In this document: piece after piece, positions 3,245 through 42,433 of the stretch
Layout of the letters: the number at the start of each line of letters is the position of its first letter
Numbering within the stretch: position 1 is the first letter of the stretch
Origin: Sphingobacteriales bacterium
Lineage (GTDB): Bacteria > Bacteroidota > Bacteroidia > Sphingobacteriales > Sphingobacteriaceae
Direction of reading: 5' to 3'
Length of the DNA: 64,000 bases
NCBI GenBank assembly: GCA_025353765.1
Contig: JANXOD010000009.1
Span: forward strand, 62,001-126,000
Notes under the pieces: model-generated
Told to the model about the DNA's origin: nothing
Databases searched by the model: none
Seen by the model: only the letters and a program-made list of their open reading frames with translations
Position numbers and translations under genes: made by a program

Positions 3245-3372
3245 TATTGCGGAATGAGTATTGCGTATTGCGATTAATTTCTTTCTGACTATAATAGAAT
3301 GCGATTTTTGCTAACTGCTAACTGCTAACTGCTAACTGCTAACTGCTAACTGCTAACTGCTAACTGCTAACT
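3245..3372. repeat. Intergenic word repeats: TATTGCG words followed by an 8.9-copy CTAACTG microsatellite
   Basis: Positions 3245-3272 contain three TATTGCG words with one GAATGAG spacer. Positions 3311-3372 are a perfect 7-bp tandem repeat of CTAACTG, eight full copies plus six bases (62 bp). The tract sits directly between the mlaF-like stop (3379) and the start of the methyltransferase (3238), so it occupies the methyltransferase promoter/leader region. Tracts of this kind are prone to slippage, so copy number could differ between isolates. Confidence 0.9.
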
Positions 3373-6366: not shown

Positions 6367-7320
6367 ATGAAAACTGAAAAAGTTGTATGGGGATTGATCC
6401 TCGTTTTTATTGGCAGTGTCTTTTTGCTTAATAATTTTGGCGTTATTGATTTTTACTGGGGAAGTATATGGCGTTTCTGGCCTTTAATATTTATTCTGAT
6501 TGGAGCTAACATGCTTTTCAGCCGATTGGATAATAATATTGGAATCATACTTACAGCGGCATTGACCATAATTGCACTAACTTTTATTGTTTACGAAGGA
6601 TCAAAGCCTGGTAACGAGAGAGGCAGAGGGTTTCATTTTAATTTTCATGATGACGATAAAAAAGCCGATAAATCAGAAGAAAAATGGTCTGCTACGAATA
6701 CGTTTACTGAAGCCTTCGCTCCCAATACACAACGGGCAGAATTGAATATAAAAGGAGGAGCCACCAGCTATGAAATAGAAGATACAACCTCTAATTTATT
6801 TGATGCGGATGTGAAGCAGCATTTTGGAAGTTACACTTTAGAAAAAGTGAGTCACGATTCAATAGAAGTATTAACCTTTAGGATGCGTGATAAGAATCAG
6901 AAATGGAACATGGATGAGGATATAGATGGTAATGAAGCTAAAATAAGGCTGAATAATAAACCCCTTTGGGATATTAATGTAGAAATGGGTGCCGGTAAAA
7001 CTGATTTTGATTTAACATCTTTTAAAGTTCAAAATCTTAAATTAAAAGGTGGAGCAGCTTCGTTTGAAGTTAAACTCGGTGAACCACAGACGGTTTCCAA
7101 TGTAACCGTAGAAACGGGTGTGGCAGAAGTTAATATTAAAATCCCATCATCATCAGGTTGTTGCATAAATGTAGATAGTGGATTATCATCTAAAGATTTT
7201 GAAGGTTTTGTAAAGCAATCCGACGGAACTTACACCACCAATAATTTTAATACAGCAGCTAAAAAGATCAATATTATCTTAAAAGGCGGTCTTTCGCAAT
7301 TTGAAGTAAGCCGATATTAG
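6367..7320 (+). CDS. LiaF/toast-rack-type membrane protein (DUF5668 plus DUF2154-like)
   Basis: 317 aa. The N-terminal ~80 residues form three or four short membrane helices with repeated W-P-L and LIGANMLF motifs (DUF5668/LiaF N-terminal type). After a charged linker at about 75-110 comes a beta-rich C-terminal domain with repeated Gly-Gly turns (KGGATSYEIED, GAGKTDFDL, KGGAASFEV, KGGLSQFEV), typical of the toast-rack/DUF2154 beta-helix. It lies directly downstream of pspC. Related LiaF proteins sense or restrain cell-envelope stress signalling; this role is inferred here. Confidence 0.75.
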   Translation: MKTEKVVWGLILVFIGSVFLLNNFGVIDFYWGSIWRFWPLIFILIGANMLFSRLDNNIGIILTAALTIIALTFIVYEGSKPGNERGRGFHFNFHDDDKKADKSEEKWSATNTFTEAFAPNTQRAELNIKGGATSYEIEDTTSNLFDADVKQHFGSYTLEKVSHDSIEVLTFRMRDKNQKWNMDEDIDGNEAKIRLNNKPLWDINVEMGAGKTDFDLTSFKVQNLKLKGGAASFEVKLGEPQTVSNVTVETGVAEVNIKIPSSSGCCINVDSGLSSKDFEGFVKQSDGTYTTNNFNTAAKKINIILKGGLSQFEVSRY

Positions 7321-19508: not shown

Positions 19509-20054
19509 ATGACCTATTTATACTTAAAAGCAATACACATTATTTTCGTAGTCAGCTGGATGGCGGGCTTGTTTTATATTGTGCGGTTATTTGTATATCA
19601 TATAGAAGCTAACGAACGTCCGGAAAACGAACGTTTGATTTTGCAAAAGCAATTCGAAATTATGCAGCATAAGTTGTGGACGATCATTACCACACCTGCT
19701 ATGATACTTGCCGTTTTAGCCGGCATCGGAATGCTTTATATAAATCCTGGTTTATTGCAGGAGCATTGGATGCAAGTTAAATTAGCCTTTGTTTTGGGAT
19801 TGCTGATCTATCATTTCATCTGCCAAAATATCATTAAACAATTAAAACAAGGGATTTTTCGCTGGACATCCACCCAATTACGTATTTGGAATGAACTAGC
19901 TACTATATTTCTAGTTGCTATCGTTTTTACAGTGATATTAAAGAGTGCCGTCGACTGGGTTTATGGTTTGATAGGATTGATCTTGTTCGCTGTTATTATT
20001 ATGTCGGCAGTTAAGATCTACAAATATTATCGACTAAAGCCTAAAAAGAATTAG
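19509..20054 (+). CDS. hemJ: HemJ-type protoporphyrinogen IX oxidase
   Basis: 181 aa, four membrane helices. The sequence matches the HemJ family known from cyanobacteria and many Bacteria: LKAIHIIFVVSWMAGLFYIVR with His10, VYHIEA, KLWTIITTPAMI, WMQVKLAFVLGLLIYHF and W-NELATI. HemJ oxidises protoporphyrinogen IX to protoporphyrin IX and carries heme b itself. It ends the hem cluster. Together with HemE it leaves only the coproporphyrinogen oxidase and ferrochelatase steps to genes outside the window. Confidence 0.9.
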   Translation: MTYLYLKAIHIIFVVSWMAGLFYIVRLFVYHIEANERPENERLILQKQFEIMQHKLWTIITTPAMILAVLAGIGMLYINPGLLQEHWMQVKLAFVLGLLIYHFICQNIIKQLKQGIFRWTSTQLRIWNELATIFLVAIVFTVILKSAVDWVYGLIGLILFAVIIMSAVKIYKYYRLKPKKN

Positions 20055-20143
20055 AAGTTTAAGAGTCTGAGATGATCTTATCTCAAAGCTATAAGTTGGT
20101 ATAGTGTGTAAGAATCACATAAGAACCATCCTTAAATTTTAGC

Positions 20144-20388
20144 ATGTCAAACAGTAAAATAGATAATTATTCTGATTTATATCAACAGCAGGTTATAGAT
20201 CTTAAATATCCAACAGGAATTTAATATCCCAATAGATTTAGAAGCACAGCCTGATTTAAAAGAAATTAGCAGATTTTATCAAAGGGATAATGGCAACTTC
20301 TGGATTGCCATGTGTGAATAATACAGTTATTGGTACAATACCCTTATTTGATATTGGAAATCAACGTGATAAACAAAATACTATATGA
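20144..20388 (+). pseudogene. Decayed N-terminal fragment of a GNAT-type acetyltransferase
   Basis: Three short frames read consecutively as one protein: frame 1 from ATG 20144 (MSNSKIDNYSDLYQQQVIDL), frame 2 from about 20199 to 20321 (ILNIQQEFNIPIDLEAQPDL, then FYQRDNGNFWIAM), and frame 3 from about 20290 to 20388 (VNNTVIGTIPLFDIGN). The NGNFWIA/VIGTI/L-DIGN pattern resembles the first half of small GNAT acetyltransferases (GNFWIA...VVGTIGLIDIGN). Two frameshifts and loss of the C-terminal acetyl-CoA half make it a pseudogene. Its last stop TGA overlaps the ATG of the next gene (ATGA at 20385-20388). Confidence 0.55.
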
Positions 20389-21188
20389 TGCACCAGCAAA
20401 TTTTAGATAAGCTTTCAGCAAAACATTTAATCCAAGCTATTGACGAAGATCTGGCAAGTCTCACCTTTGATGCAATATGTTATGAAAAGAACACCACAGT
20501 TGCACAGCTATCATATATACTTCCAAAACTCTTACTGCGTTGGAATTGTGTACTATTTGCAGATGAAGGAATTTCGGCAACATATAAACAAAAAACGATT
20601 ATTGCATTAGCAGTTCTATTGCATAAGTATGGTTTTGCAGACAAATTTATTACTAAAAATGCCCTACAGGCAATTGATAAGCTTAATAAAGATATTGCTT
20701 TAAGTGACGATTTTTTTAGAAAATCTAATGAGATAAAAGCATTTATTAATTCTATGCCTGCTCCACTAAAGAGAAAACCGGCAATTGCAGAAAGCATTAC
20801 TTTTTATAGAGCAGAAGATGTAGTTTCTATACAATTAGAGGGCAAATTTTATGCAGCTTATATTCATCAACTTTCAGGTCCAAATGAAAGTCCAATTATT
20901 GAGTTGTATGATGGTGTTTTTAGTAAAGTGCCAACTCTAAACGAATTAGGAAAATTAAATGCAAAGGGAAGAATCTACAATGACGGAAAAGAAAGAATTT
21001 GCCTTTTTTCAATAAACGGGATGAAGTACTTGCCAGACCCTGCAAACCAAATCCAACTGATTAGTGCTTGTGTTGAGAAAAGGCCGTCAAATGAACATCT
21101 TACAGAATCTGTTGGCTTATATGCGGTTCTTGACATATTTCGATTGCAAGGAGTAATTAAGGAAATGTTTGCTTTTGAAACAGAATAA
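20385..21188 (+). CDS. Protein of unknown function, 267 aa
   Basis: I do not recognise the family. It is soluble, with no signal peptide or membrane helix. The N-terminal half (~1-140) is predicted alpha-helical (LSAKHLIQAIDEDLASL, TIIALAVLLHKYGF). The C-terminal half (~145-267) is a beta-rich domain beginning RAEDVVSIQLEGKFYAAYIHQ, with ELYDGVFSKVPTLNEL, RIYNDGKERICLFS and NGMKYLPDPANQ. The layout resembles small single-domain immunity proteins, but this is a guess. It stands alone between the hem cluster and a repeat tract. ATG codons at both 20385 and 20388 are possible. Confidence 0.65.
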   Translation: MMHQQILDKLSAKHLIQAIDEDLASLTFDAICYEKNTTVAQLSYILPKLLLRWNCVLFADEGISATYKQKTIIALAVLLHKYGFADKFITKNALQAIDKLNKDIALSDDFFRKSNEIKAFINSMPAPLKRKPAIAESITFYRAEDVVSIQLEGKFYAAYIHQLSGPNESPIIELYDGVFSKVPTLNELGKLNAKGRIYNDGKERICLFSINGMKYLPDPANQIQLISACVEKRPSNEHLTESVGLYAVLDIFRLQGVIKEMFAFETE

Positions 21189-21448
21189 AATCAGTTTCCC
21201 CGGGTAAATGTGGATATTAAATTTATAAATACAGTATTCCTGGTAAAGATTTAACTGTCTAATCTTATTTGACTATTAAATTTTTGAAAGTATTACTTAT
21301 TTACACTCTATTATTATGAAAATCACGCTGATTCTCTCTTTTTTTCAGAATAGCCTAAAGAAAGAACATAAGATTGGGTGGTAACACTAAAATTTCTCCA
21401 AAATGACTAAAAATCCCATTTAATTGGCAAAAATAGAAATTTGTATCA

Positions 21449-21658
21449 TTAGAATGCTTGCTGACATAGCCCAAATGACAATTGACTGCATCCAAATGCT
21501 CGCTGACAGCGTTCGGATGCCTTCTGGCTGAACCCAAATGACAATTGACTGTATCCAAATGCTCGATGACAGCGTCTGGATGGCTTCTGGCTGAGCCCAA
21601 ATGCCAATTGGCTGAATTCAAATATACACTAGCAGCTTCCGGATGGCTTCTGACTGGA
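21449..21658. repeat. Ten-unit 21-bp tandem repeat with 63-bp higher-order period
   Basis: Ten consecutive 21-bp units run without gaps from 21449 to 21658. Three unit types alternate in order: CCCAAATGACAATTGACTGCA, TCCAAATGCTCGCTGACAGCG and TTCGGATGCCTTCTGGCTGAA, giving a 63-bp super-repeat copied about three times. Shared skeleton: Y-CAAATG or CGGATG, then CTG or TTG at fixed spacing. The minus strand is open across the units and would encode heptads (HLGSARR, HPNAVSE, HLDAVNC), but the frame has no supported start or neighbour, so I treat it as non-coding. 21 bp equals two turns of B-DNA. The 260 bp before it (21189-21448) hold nothing I recognise. Confidence 0.9.
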
Positions 21659-21738
21659 TAAGATTGTTTTCTAATTATATCTTATTATTATATTATAATA
21701 TCAAATTATTATAAAATATTTCTTAAATTGATTTTTTA

Positions 21739-21770
21739 ATTGTCTTTGTCAAAGCGGGCAGTTATATTTG
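21739..21770 (+). promoter_or_regulatory. Promoter of the 219-aa gene
   Basis: ATTG (21739-21742, near TTTG) and TATATTTG (21763-21770) are separated by 20 nt, the spacing seen at the tRNA-Gln promoter in this window. The leader to the ATG at 21799 is about 25 nt. Confidence 0.6.
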
Positions 21771-21798
21771 AGGAATTTAAATTATAAAATCTAATCTT

Positions 21799-22495
21799 AT
21801 GAATCAACGTCAGCAAAATTCTGTAAACATGTACGAAGCGGTAATCGCTTTATTCGATAAATCTTCAACAGTTTGGAACACTAAAATTCCCGTATTAAAT
21901 GCATTTAATACGTTTCGTACCCTGGCTGATGAGCTTAGTGATACCGCATTGAGCCAGCAGCAGGAAGATACAAAGGGCTATACTACACAAAAGTACCAGC
22001 AAAAGAGAGTGCTTATTGATTTAGCATATAGTCTTTCGCTGAAACTAAAAGGTTATGCTAAAGCGGTAAATCATTCTGTATTGTTGCAGGCAGTAGGATA
22101 TTCAATGTCTGAACTGGATGGCAGCCGTGAGCAGGATATGATAAACCGCTGCCAGACCATCCATGACAAAGGTGTAGAGTTTAAAAATATAGCCGTTGAT
22201 TATAATATCCTAACGGAGGAACTTGCAGCCCTGCAAACGGCCATCAATACGTTTAAACCTCTGGGTATTGTGCGGGATAGTATAGGTGATAACCGTACTA
22301 TAGCAACCCAAGATATTGGAAAACTGCTGCAAGAGGGAGCAAAACTGCTGAATATACTGGATGCACAGGTAATGGGCCTAATTCAAGATAAGGCCTTTTT
22401 AGCAAGCTACCCTGCAAGCCCGCAAAATTACCGACCGTGTAGGCCGTGGAAAAGCTAAGGATAATGTGCTACCGCAAGCCATACCTGTAGCTTAA
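21799..22495 (+). pseudogene. Helical protein of unknown function with a +1 frameshift near the C-terminus
   Basis: The open frame from 21799 stops at 22458 (219 aa). The protein is mostly alpha-helical with no membrane segment. After residue ~204 (FLASY) the frame runs into a Pro- and Cys-rich tail (PASPQNYRPCRPWKS) unlike the rest. Skipping one C in the TACCCTG run (22410-22412) restores YLQARKITDRVGRGKAKDN and ends at a TAA at 22495, just before a strong terminator. The restored tail, with Ala-Arg-Lys-Ile and Gly-Arg-Gly, looks like the natural end of this Bacteroidota protein type. It may be a frameshifted gene, a slippage site or a sequencing error. Function unknown. Confidence 0.6.
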
Positions 22496-22514
22496 TAAAT
22501 TAATTGCTATATAT

Positions 22515-22548
22515 AAACCGTTTTGCTGACTGGCAAAACGGTTTTTTG
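22515..22548 (+). terminator. Rho-independent terminator after the 219-aa gene
   Basis: AAACCGTTTTGC (22515-22526) pairs perfectly with GCAAAACGGTTT (22533-22544) around TGACTG, followed by a T run. It sits 20 nt after the TAA at 22495, supporting that frame as the true gene end. Confidence 0.9.
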
Positions 22549-22622
22549 GTTTATGGGGTATAGTAAAGATGTGAACTTGCGTTTTTTCAATCTTAATACC
22601 TCACTCTTGCACATAAAGAGAG

Positions 22623-23894
22623 CTAGGGCTCCATTGTGAAATATAAATCGTTTGAATATTTATCGCCTAACTTAACATTAAGCCGAATAGTCCCATCATA
22701 AAATGAAGAAGGAGCATAGACTCCAATTATATTTTGAGAGATGGAGAAAGGAACTAAATTAAAAATTGCACCTGATTGGTCACTTTGGCAAGATATAGAC
22801 ACCTTATTTATATCAGTCCCTAAGCTACCTCCATAAATTTGAAAAGGTTGATTTGGTTTCACTTTTAACAGATCTTTACCCAAAGTACCAGCCCCAAAAC
22901 TTTTAATATAAGGTGCTCCTTGCCTCACAATATTAAAATCTTTGTGCACATATTCAGTTTTGGAGCCTATAACAACTTTTATTTTGCATATTGGTTTTTT
23001 CTCAGCAGACTGATCAGGTATATCAATATCATTGGGTATTGCTATTTTAATGTTATTAATATTTACATCTAATACCGATGCCTGGAATTCTTGCATATTG
23101 TAGTATAAAAATACTTTAACACTTGCGGGGGGTGTTTGATATCCAAAACTGTAACCTTTAATAGTGAAACCACTACCAGCTTCAAGTATGGGAGTACCAT
23201 AATACGGTTCTTCAAGAGTAAATTCTGGGAGTGGGTCAATTATTTTAGGCGCTTGTTGAACTGAAACTCGGTAAATAGATTGGCTTTTGTCTTCTGCTGT
23301 TACTGTATAGGTTACCAGTTCTGTAAAATTTTGTATCTGGCCCGAGGCCGGACTAACTACCGCTTTTTCTGAAACCGCAATGGTGGGTATCAGTGCTCCC
23401 AAATTAGTGCCGTTGGGGACAACAGCGTTAATAATACCAGATTCCTCGGAGAGTATGAAACCTGAAACTTCCGGATTAAATCCTAAGAATTTAAACGATG
23501 TAATTTTCTTTTCGGAACTTAACAGTGTGGGCATTCCTTCTTTTTGTACTCTTATTGTATAATCTTGTTTACTGCCATCTTCGGCTGTTACGGTATAAGT
23601 TACTTTATTTGTAAAATCCTGCGCCTGGCCTGAGGGCGGGTTAACTGTCGCTTTATCTGAAACCTGGATAACAGGTTTTAAAGCAGTTATATTCGTGCCT
23701 GCTGACATGTTAAATTGTATTGTCCTTTTAATTTGATCAATCTCTCCTTTAGGCAAGCCTATAAATGTAAAGGAGAGAATGTTTTTTTCTGTGCTTTTTG
23801 TGGGTGCTACGGGGCTTATTTTATCTTTATGACAACAGGAAAAGAGTACTGCACAAATAAATAGCAGTGTACTGTTTAAAAATGACTTGTTCAT
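22623..23894 (-). CDS. Lipoprotein with two DUF5018-like domains and an IPT/TIG tail (paralogue A)
   Basis: 423 aa. The signal is MNKSFLNSTLLFICAVLFSC with a lipobox LFSC at 17-20. Two tandem beta domains follow (about 38-120 and 130-215), each ending VTYTVTAEDGSKQ or VTYTVTAEDKSQ, the hallmark of DUF5018-type repeats in Bacteroidota cell-surface lipoproteins. The C-terminal ~200 residues look like IPT/TIG immunoglobulin folds (GSGFTIKGYSFG, PFQIYGGSLG). These are probably binding or scaffold proteins at the outer membrane. It is the first of three paralogues with near-identical N-terminal modules; sharing and divergence are discussed in the findings. Confidence 0.8.
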   Translation of the reverse strand: MNKSFLNSTLLFICAVLFSCCHKDKISPVAPTKSTEKNILSFTFIGLPKGEIDQIKRTIQFNMSAGTNITALKPVIQVSDKATVNPPSGQAQDFTNKVTYTVTAEDGSKQDYTIRVQKEGMPTLLSSEKKITSFKFLGFNPEVSGFILSEESGIINAVVPNGTNLGALIPTIAVSEKAVVSPASGQIQNFTELVTYTVTAEDKSQSIYRVSVQQAPKIIDPLPEFTLEEPYYGTPILEAGSGFTIKGYSFGYQTPPASVKVFLYYNMQEFQASVLDVNINNIKIAIPNDIDIPDQSAEKKPICKIKVVIGSKTEYVHKDFNIVRQGAPYIKSFGAGTLGKDLLKVKPNQPFQIYGGSLGTDINKVSISCQSDQSGAIFNLVPFSISQNIIGVYAPSSFYDGTIRLNVKLGDKYSNDLYFTMEP

Positions 23895-24010
23895 ACTTTT
23901 GGGGGATTAAAATGTTTATTTATAGATATTTTTGTTTGGCAGAGTATTGTGTTTTTCTAACTGAACTTAAATGACCTTTAAAATATTTAAATCACAAAGG
24001 GAGAATTCAT

Positions 24011-24970
24011 TTATTCCTTAATGCACCGAATAAAATACCCTGATTCTTTATAGGCTTCGCGTTTATCAATATTGTTAGTATAGGAATTCACGCTTAAAGC
24101 AAATGCACTATGCTCATCATTGCCTTGTAATGATGACCATCAAAAACTGAAATTAGCAAAATCATTGCCGCCATTAAATCGACGGCAATCACTAATAAGT
24201 GCTTTAAAACCGTTATTTTCCTGTAATTTACCGCCCGCTTTGTCCTTACCTCCTAAATAATCAATTAAAATAGTCCAGTCATTACTACTCGGTACACGCC
24301 AACCTGTGGGAGCTATATGGTGTCTATTATCTACGGCATACCAATTATATCGTCTGCCATATTTTTGGGAATTAAACGGATCATTATTGCCATCCCAATA
24401 AGCACCGGTAGTTAGATCCCTCCAGGTTTGTTTATCTATTACATTGGGTATAGCTTCCCCATTACGATATTTTGTGGTTTTTAGGTTTTCTGTCATCCAT
24501 ACCTGGCTGCCTATTTGTATGGTATGGTATACATTGCCATCTATATCTGTTACGGTAGAACCTAATTCTATGGGTGGTGTAGATGGGGTTATAATAGGAG
24601 GAGTCGGAACTTCGGAGGTTTTTACAATTACTTTATACTCCTGTTTACTTCCGTCTTCAGCCGTTATGGTATAAGCTATTTCTTTTGTAAAATCCTGTAG
24701 CTGGTTAGAAGCTGGGTTAACGCTTGCTTTTTCTGAAACCTGTATAACAGGTTTTAAAGCAGTTACAATAGTACCTGCGGGTACCGTAAATTGTATTGTC
24801 TTTTTAATCTGATCAATCTCTCCTTTAGGCAAGCCTATAAATGTAAAGAAGAGTATATTTTTATCTGTGCTTTTTGCAGGTGCTACAGGGCTTACTTTAT
24901 CTTTATGGCAACAACAAAAGAGGGCTGCACAAATAATGAGTAGAGTACTGTTTAAAAATAACTTGTTCAT
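24011..24970 (-). pseudogene. FISUMP-domain lipoprotein (paralogue B) interrupted by an in-frame TGA
   Basis: Start at 24970 (MNKLFLNSTLL...CCCHKDK, lipobox LFCC); an upstream start at 25042 adds 24 residues before the signal peptide and is unlikely. One DUF5018-like domain is followed by a Fibrobacter succinogenes major paralogous (FISUMP) domain: VTDIDGNVYHTIQIGSQVWMTENLKTTKY, YWDGNNDPF, RRYNWYAVD, APTGWRVPS. Translation stops at TGA 24140-24142 after NFSF. The next 42 codons in the same frame read WSSLQGNDEHSAF and end GYFIRCIKE-stop at 24011, the normal FISUMP ending (WWSS...GY-RCIK). One base change from TGG to TGA explains the break. Confidence 0.75.
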
Positions 24971-25174
24971 AAGTAAGTAATGGGATTTAAGTAATTGATG
25001 ATTAATTAGAAAATAATAAGAAAGCAGTTGATAAATGCACAAGGCACTTCCATTTGTTAACTAGTAAATTGCTTATACAGACAATTGAATGCCCAAATCG
25101 TTTTGTTAATGAAAATAGCCTCATTTGTACCCTAAGGGAGTTTCTCAAATTGAATCTCCGCTACAGCCTACTTA

Positions 25175-26395
25175 TTAATTTACTCTAACAACTTTGCTAA
25201 CCTGACCCCTGGTAGTAGTTACTGTTAAGGTCCAATTATCCTCCATGTGCATTCCTGCGACATCCTGTATTTTCATTTTAATACCCTTGCTTGATTCTGA
25301 AAGCAATTCAAGTTTCAACGCCTGGCCATTTTTCTCTAATGTTACCACATTGCCACTTTCATCAAAGAATTTACCCTGAATAATAAATGCTTCACCGCGA
25401 ATAAACAACGAGGGATCAGTAGAATAAATAATAGGGTCAGCTGAAATAATAGTGATATCACTATTTACCTGTTGTTCCTGATCATCTATACTCACACTGA
25501 CACTATAGGTTGCAGGCTCCATATTATCAGGAATCTTAAAAGCCAGTTCATTATCTGTTAATTTTTCAAATTTGCTTATTGTTGTTGATACAGAAGGGTT
25601 TTGTTTGTCTGTCAATATCACTTTTTTATTTCCATAGCCGTTATAATTAAAATTTACACCTTTAATAGAAACAAGGCTGCCTTGAGCTGCCATAAAAGGA
25701 CTTATAGAGGTAATCGTAAAATTAAATTTGGGCACTATAAATACAGCAACCGCATAAAAACCTTTACTGCTGCCATCCTCTGAAGTTACGGTGTATATTA
25801 TAGTTTTATGATTAGAAAAGTCCTGCGCTTCACCTAAGGAAGGAGTGATCGTTGCTTTTGGGGAGATTACAATAGTAGGCACTAATGATCTTACATCTGT
25901 CCCTTCGGGAACTTTAAGTATCACTTGGGTTTCTTCCACTTTGCCAATAACTTTAGGCGTTAAGGCATCAAAATCGAAAGATAAAATTTTACTGGCAGAA
26001 TTTCGGGGGACTGCTATTTCTTTTGGGGCAAGCATTCCCTCTACTGCTACGCTTACTTTATACTCTTGTGTAGAGCCATCTTCGGCTGTTACGGTATAAG
26101 TTACTTTATTTGTAAAATCCTGCGCCTGGCCTGAGGGCGGGTTAACTGTCGCTTTTGCTGAAACCTGGATAACAGGTTTTAAACCAGTTACAATAGTGCC
26201 TGTGGGTACCGTAAATTGTATTGTCTTTTTAGTTTGATCAATTTCTCCTTTAGGCAAGCCTATAAATGTAAAGGAGAGTATATTTTTCTCTGTGCTTTTG
26301 ATGGGTGCAACAGCGCTTATTTTATCTTTATGACAACAGGAAAAGATAATTGCACAAATAACTAATAGGGTGCTGTTTGGAAATAATTTTTTCAT
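25175..26395 (-). CDS. Lipoprotein with two DUF5018-like domains and IPT/TIG folds (paralogue C)
   Basis: 406 aa. The signal is MKKLFPNSTLLVICAIIFSC with the same CCHKDK after the cleavage site as paralogue A. Two DUF5018-like domains (about 38-120 and 130-222) are followed by TIG-type folds (PFMAAQGSLVSIKGVNFNYNG; DPSLFIRGEAFIIQG). The N-terminal module is almost word-for-word that of A and B, whereas the C-terminal halves differ between A and C. The gene is intact. Surface lipoproteins of this kind usually bind glycans or other proteins; no SusC-like partner is adjacent. Confidence 0.8.
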   Translation of the reverse strand: MKKLFPNSTLLVICAIIFSCCHKDKISAVAPIKSTEKNILSFTFIGLPKGEIDQTKKTIQFTVPTGTIVTGLKPVIQVSAKATVNPPSGQAQDFTNKVTYTVTAEDGSTQEYKVSVAVEGMLAPKEIAVPRNSASKILSFDFDALTPKVIGKVEETQVILKVPEGTDVRSLVPTIVISPKATITPSLGEAQDFSNHKTIIYTVTSEDGSSKGFYAVAVFIVPKFNFTITSISPFMAAQGSLVSIKGVNFNYNGYGNKKVILTDKQNPSVSTTISKFEKLTDNELAFKIPDNMEPATYSVSVSIDDQEQQVNSDITIISADPIIYSTDPSLFIRGEAFIIQGKFFDESGNVVTLEKNGQALKLELLSESSKGIKMKIQDVAGMHMEDNWTLTVTTTRGQVSKVVRVN

Positions 26396-42140: not shown

Positions 42141-42433
42141 AGAAAAAGCATCGTCAGATTTTACGGAGTATTTCCTCAACTGAGAAATGGCATCGTCAGA
42201 TTTTACTGAGTACTTCCTCAACTGAGAAATAGCATCGTCAGATTTACGGAGTATTTCTTCAAATGAGAAATGGCATCGTCAGATTTTACTGAGTACTTCC
42301 TCAACTGAGAAATGGCATTGTCAGATTTTACGGAGTGCTTTCTCAAGTAAGAAATGGCATCGTTGAATTTTATGGAGCACTCCGCAGGTTTGGAAATGGC
42401 ATCATCAAAATTTACGAACCACTTTACCTGCTG
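42141..42433. repeat. Seven-copy 42-bp tandem repeat filling the accA/DUF2723 gap
   Basis: Units start at 42141, 42183, 42225, 42266, 42308, 42350 and 42392. Consensus AGAAATGGCATCGTCAGATT then TTACKGAGTAYTTCCTCAACTG. Units 2 and 4 are identical and units 1 and 3 are close, an alternating A/B pattern that implies an 84-bp dimer was duplicated. Unit 3 lacks one T (41 bp). Units 6 and 7 are degenerate; unit 7 reaches into the last codons of the DUF2723 gene. No spacers are present and several units have stop codons in each frame, so it is neither CRISPR nor a protein repeat. Confidence 0.9.

Follow-up and report, generated by a model that had tools for sequence, protein, structure and literature searches.

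The array considered here lies in the window, the 64,000-bp stretch of DNA that was analysed, between a 267-aa ORF (20385-21188) and a 219-aa ORF (21799-22458), both on the plus strand. The 267-aa ORF had no Pfam match at an E value of ≤0.1 and was unmatched in 19 congeners, and the 219-aa ORF gave a sub-threshold Pfam match only; the frame of the latter may be lost near 22430, and another frame runs to a stop near 22495. Further along, three similar lipoprotein-like ORFs stand in tandem on the minus strand (22623-26395), with DUF5018 in the first, which was the one scanned. Rfam gave no match at E ≤ 1 for positions 20000-23000, and a Bacteroidota-type promoter pair was absent from 21301-21800. 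The features discussed below are the following:

21334..21449, minus strand: flank outside the array, also similar beside the C32 array (L076 ~7024-7148; local score of 74 versus 29 ± 5)
21457..21666, minus strand: ten 21-bp units of three types in 63-bp order (initially annotated as 21449-21658, here shifted to the best register)
21667..21798, no strand assigned: very AT-rich stretch separating the array from the 219-aa ORF
42141..42381, no strand assigned: second intergenic array of the window with a period that is a multiple of 21 bp; the 42-bp unit consists of two 21-bp halves (TRF and sequence-blind scan)

On the minus strand and in its best register, the array (21666-21457) consists of ten 21-bp units of three types in a fixed 63-bp order. 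The 21-bp tandem repeat with 63-bp higher order that the initial annotation described is borne out by TRF, which called a period of 63 bp with 3.0 copies at 21468-21656 (83% matches, score of 252) and a period of 21 bp at the same site, by the lag identity within 21449-21658 (0.50, 0.54, 0.80, and 0.71 at lags of 21, 42, 63, and 126 bp, respectively), and by a sequence-blind detector (z = 15.1 at lag 63). Compared with a single consensus, the ten units in best register carry about 30% mismatches and zero insertions or deletions. The outermost units are degenerate, and the ends of the array are therefore soft by about one unit. Its head-to-tail units, of a length within the range of about 10 to 100 bp, and its position outside genes are as expected of a bacterial intergenic minisatellite in general.

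The genome contains relatives of the array at two more sites, located with BLAST and a 63-position sequence model: C32 (L076 6793-7023) and C20 (L075 5306-5452). The C20 array overlaps the 3' terminus of a 264-aa ORF in convergent orientation. In the other 149 genomes searched, the model found nothing comparable (next best match, 21.6 bits versus 58). The local score of the flank shared with C32 was reached in 0 of 500 simulations. Similarity of the AT-rich stretch at 21667..21798 to the 5' flank of the C32 array exceeded chance only weakly (13 of 300 simulations were equally good), and that to the 5' flank of the C20 array was not beyond chance. A candidate fourth member, L202 12040-12171 (C20:92040), was set aside with a borderline profile correlation of 0.54 to 0.55, and because of this doubtful membership its stop codons were not used as evidence. 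Homology to arrays of two other genomes, G477 and G647, is doubtful: model R1 finds them at 4.5e-8 and 3.3e-7, but a model of three units counts a chance unit match three times, and the unit-profile correlations of the window, C32, and C20 arrays with G647 were 0.59 to 0.69, where unrelated arrays of the genome reach 0.61 by chance. Exact-pattern scans of genome contigs and of viral contigs gave no match. A family-wide pattern scan matched 149 of 399 genomes, and the reversed control pattern also matched often; among 14 inspected matches in other genomes, one had a 21-bp period (G271, L072), in a short heptameric-looking run.

The array is one of many in its genome that share a unit length. 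Arrays were sought irrespective of their letters, by lag identity in 126-bp windows at periods of 10 to 70 bp with a threshold of z ≥ 6, at which 244 kb of Markov-simulated sequence yielded no array. The sample, 864 kb or about 30% of the genome, was made up of the window plus 40 stretches of 20 kb each, 17 of them from one large contig; the C32 and C20 stretches, fetched because of a match, were left out of the counts. It contained 33 arrays, 7 within ORFs and 26 intergenic according to a simple ORF rule rather than annotation. The periods of the ORF-located arrays were 60 (three arrays), 36 (two), 51, and 12 bp (one each). Of the 26 intergenic arrays, 17 have a period that is a multiple of 21 bp, i.e., 21 (12 arrays), 42 (4 arrays), or 63 bp (the window array); the other nine have periods of 43 (four arrays), 14 (two arrays, derived from heptamers), 41, 39, and 66 bp (one each). 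If all periods from 10 to 70 bp were equally likely, the binomial probability would be 1e-16, or 3e-12 when counted by family (about 12 of 18). Grouped by eye, with the backing of profile comparison, the 17 arrays form about 12 families whose units are unrelated in sequence. The best lag was 42 or 63 bp in 15 of the 17 arrays, so that most have a higher order of two or three units. When the window is excluded, since its array was the reason for choosing it, 15 such arrays in 800 kb correspond to about 53 per genome, and extrapolation from the sample hence suggests perhaps fifty genome-wide. The initial view that exact 21-bp units are unusual for bacterial intergenic DNA may hold for bacteria generally, but not for this genome.

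The second array of the window at 42141..42381 has a relative in another part of the genome, at L191 15389-15729. The four period-43 arrays (L144 4792-5208, L158 14183-14508, L153 18130-18430, and L159 9933-10106) belong to two sequence families, and the 43-bp unit of L153 resembles 21 + 22 bp. Cyclic alignment revealed no indel in the window array, L143a, L192a, L192b, L194, L196, L197, and L199, and 1-bp shifts in L148 and the 42-bp array of the window (42247); one more was seen in L152 by direct inspection. Since the detector needs about 126 bp in one register and favours indel-free arrays, the lack of indels carries less weight than the period counts.

The preference for multiples of 21 bp was compared with that of simple duplications, taken as exact two-copy repeats outside arrays (run of ≥12, periods of 8 to 70 bp) in the non-coding part of the sample (about 109 kb). 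The 17 repeats found had many different periods, 21 bp in two cases and 42 bp in one, and this share of 3/17 differs from the 17/26 of the arrays (Fisher's exact test, P = 0.004; P = 0.006 for 12/18 families), albeit with a small control. Two-copy repeats show no such preference; judging from this small sample, it seems to set in after the first duplication, when arrays are expanded or retained.

Beyond the source genome, the distribution is patchy. Nine congeners (22 stretches, 412 kb) contained two intergenic arrays, none with a multiple of 21 bp, for which the chance at the density of the source genome is 3e-4. In 25 stretches (500 kb) of other genomes, three of eight intergenic arrays had such a period, all of them weak (z of 6.1 to 6.6). 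Strong intergenic 21-bp arrays of several hundred base pairs occur in two distant lineages, namely, in G477 and its congener G855, and in G647, G840, and G839 of another family. Fifteen untargeted stretches of G477 (300 kb), mostly on contigs known to hold an array and counted without the stretches around matches, contained two intergenic arrays, both of 21 bp and together in one stretch. Very long intergenic 21-bp arrays of up to about 1 kb were observed in G477 and G855 (L107, L162-L171), at least one of them built from blocks of different unit families. Cyclic alignment lists many shifts in the mixed arrays of these two genomes, which we tentatively put down to the presence of several unit families in one array.

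The window array itself is without a close relative for a comparison of copy numbers, and changes by whole units are known from arrays of the same class only. In G647 and G840, which share synteny at the locus, the arrays differ by a single 42-bp gap and scattered substitutions, and the alignment of L168 of G477 with L165 of G855 has intra-array gaps of 21, 168, and 21 bp. A third ortholog pair (L107/L162) aligned poorly within the array, with irregular gaps of many sizes, and was unusable. Drift of the unit length in relatives, named initially as a sign against a phasing constraint, was absent from two ortholog pairs that changed by whole units, but the irregular gaps of the third count against such a constraint.

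We consider it about an even bet (probability of roughly 0.5) that the array is a non-coding intergenic minisatellite that keeps its two-turn unit length but not its sequence, in a genome where growth or upkeep of arrays favours two-turn units. Slippage would create short duplications irrespective of length, from which those near 21 bp would preferentially be expanded or kept. One, two, or three units may be copied at a time during expansion, which would account for the 42- and 63-bp higher orders, and arrays may occasionally seed copies at other intergenic sites. Two-turn geometry could act through in-phase loops or pairing during slippage or unequal exchange, and the arrays themselves are probably close to neutral. 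Counting against this reading are the intergenic arrays with periods of 43, 41, 39, and 66 bp, the 1-bp shifts, the irregular gaps of L107/L162, and the small size of both the two-copy control and the sampled part of the genome. Loss of mismatch repair was considered as a cause and rejected, as MutS is present in 20 of 21 genomes searched, including the source genome.

The main rival, which we regard as possible but doubtful, is that the spacing is selected and the letters are free, with a putative shape-reading protein of the nucleoid type binding one face of each array. Conservation of the spacing despite unrelated letters and the best repetition at 42 or 63 bp agree with phased binding, but no common motif was seen by eye, the orientation of genes around the arrays is inconsistent, and no such array appeared in the stretches sampled from nine congeners. 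The sub-period and curvature results speak against it as well. A 10-bp sub-period is not shared by the 19 arrays of the genome subjected to column permutation (Stouffer of -0.9 to -1.0), and the predicted curvature of the window array, calculated from wedge values, is 1.12 compared with a background mean of 1.11 and a 95th percentile of 1.24. Over 23 arrays, predicted curvature was on average no higher than after column permutation (mean z of 0.4), L202 (z of 5.1) and L196 (z of 3.0) being exceptions. RNA folding of the window array was no better than that of permuted sequences (z of +0.95 and +0.21); better folding, on one strand, was predicted for L148 and L157 (z of -3.3 each). Curvature, which the period was initially said to suit, thus finds no support, nor does a general 10-bp sub-period, but that the exact period matters more than the sequence is supported in part, since 21, 42, or 63 bp are kept with unrelated letters, and the helical idea of the initial annotation survives as a statement about the period.

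It is unlikely that the 21 bp represent a triple (3 x 7) of the heptanucleotide repeats known from the intergenic DNA of many bacteria. Column permutation revealed a lag-7 excess in the window array (P = 0.017), C32 (0.016), L148 (0.03), L201 (0.046), and G647 (0.022), and true heptamer arrays of TAACTGC exist at 3309-3372 of the window and in L201 (15585-15695), but over 19 arrays of the genome no 7-bp sub-period is shared (Stouffer of -0.1), with several arrays well below chance, and the scan contained no arrays of 28 or 35 bp. The two TAACTGC arrays share a one-sided flank of about 80 bp (86.6% identity over 149 bp).

Rather improbable, too, is a mobile element of the BrickBuilt kind, i.e., a minisatellite carried within a MITE that has a leader and a tail. 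The flank common to the window and C32 arrays, the presence of array families at several intergenic sites, and a weak inverted repeat around the window array (21367-21408/21760-21801) would fit such an element. An equally good inverted repeat, however, occurred in 10 of 300 simulations, the C32 array has none, the shared flank extends past the candidate end, and in the five other multi-site families compared, heptamers excluded, the best BLAST matches barely extend beyond the arrays.

That the array is the relic of, or a living, heptad-coding gene on the minus strand is highly improbable: the strand is open across the array as initially stated, and a frame of the type HLxxVxx continues uninterrupted through the arrays of the window and of C32 and through the final five units of C20 (25 units without a stop; chance of 0.08 by column shuffling with the stop-bearing C20 unit excluded), but this is cheap evidence because 21 bp equal seven codons and a stop-free unit stays open throughout, and no coding signal emerged otherwise, as units 63 bp apart differ by 4 synonymous versus 22 non-synonymous codon changes without a sign of purifying selection (7, 11, and 15 differences at codon positions 1, 2, and 3, with position 3 slightly favoured), a common or conserved start is missing from the arrays of the window, C32, and C20, the second C20 unit contains a stop, searches against Pfam and against plasmid and phage sequences gave no match and the best PDB match had an unconvincing E value of 0.1, and the arrays of the genome are open in zero to three frames, with 8 of 19 lacking any.

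On the reading of length-kept minisatellites, a wider statement can be put forward tentatively, as a conjecture that we hold to be less than evenly probable: several lineages, Bacteroidota-like as judged from gene content, may carry length-defined intergenic minisatellites with 21-bp units and two- and three-unit higher orders, maintained by a process that measures helical phase, be it copying geometry or a shape-reading protein. Tandem repeats are usually classed by sequence, whereas here unrelated arrays share one unit length. Duplication itself lacks this preference, as judged from a small control, which sets it apart from expansion, and the role of helical phase in the growth or upkeep of minisatellites becomes directly testable in a bacterium. 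In our literature search, a 21-bp class defined by length, with one period across unrelated units within a genome, did not come up.

Among known systems, VNTR or minisatellite loci are used in bacterial strain typing, and their copy number changes by whole units between relatives, as was seen here in two ortholog pairs of 21-bp arrays from distant lineages. Heptanucleotide repeats such as TAACTGA are described as intergenic, tandem, and patchy in occurrence, with some Bacteroidetes among the carriers (PMC4679880), and heptamer arrays as found across prokaryotes (PMC6344855). The 21-bp arrays resemble them in being intergenic, tandem, and patchy, and the window itself holds a TAACTGC array, one letter away from TAACTGA, but the unit is 21 bp instead of 7 bp and has no general 7-bp sub-period (PMC4679880, PMC6344855). 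BrickBuilt of Porphyromonas gingivalis is a combined minisatellite and MITE with a 23-bp unit, a single sequence family at 19 sites per genome, a leader and a tail with inverted-repeat ends, and 0 to 6% indels within elements (PMC4596501). Both systems are intergenic, have imperfect units close to two helical turns, and occupy many sites; shared flanks characterize most BrickBuilt copies and here the window and C32 arrays (PMC4596501). The inverted-repeat ends of BrickBuilt have no convincing counterpart at the window array, and unlike its 23-bp unit of one family, the arrays described here combine a 21-bp unit with about 12 families and a two- or three-unit higher order (PMC4596501).
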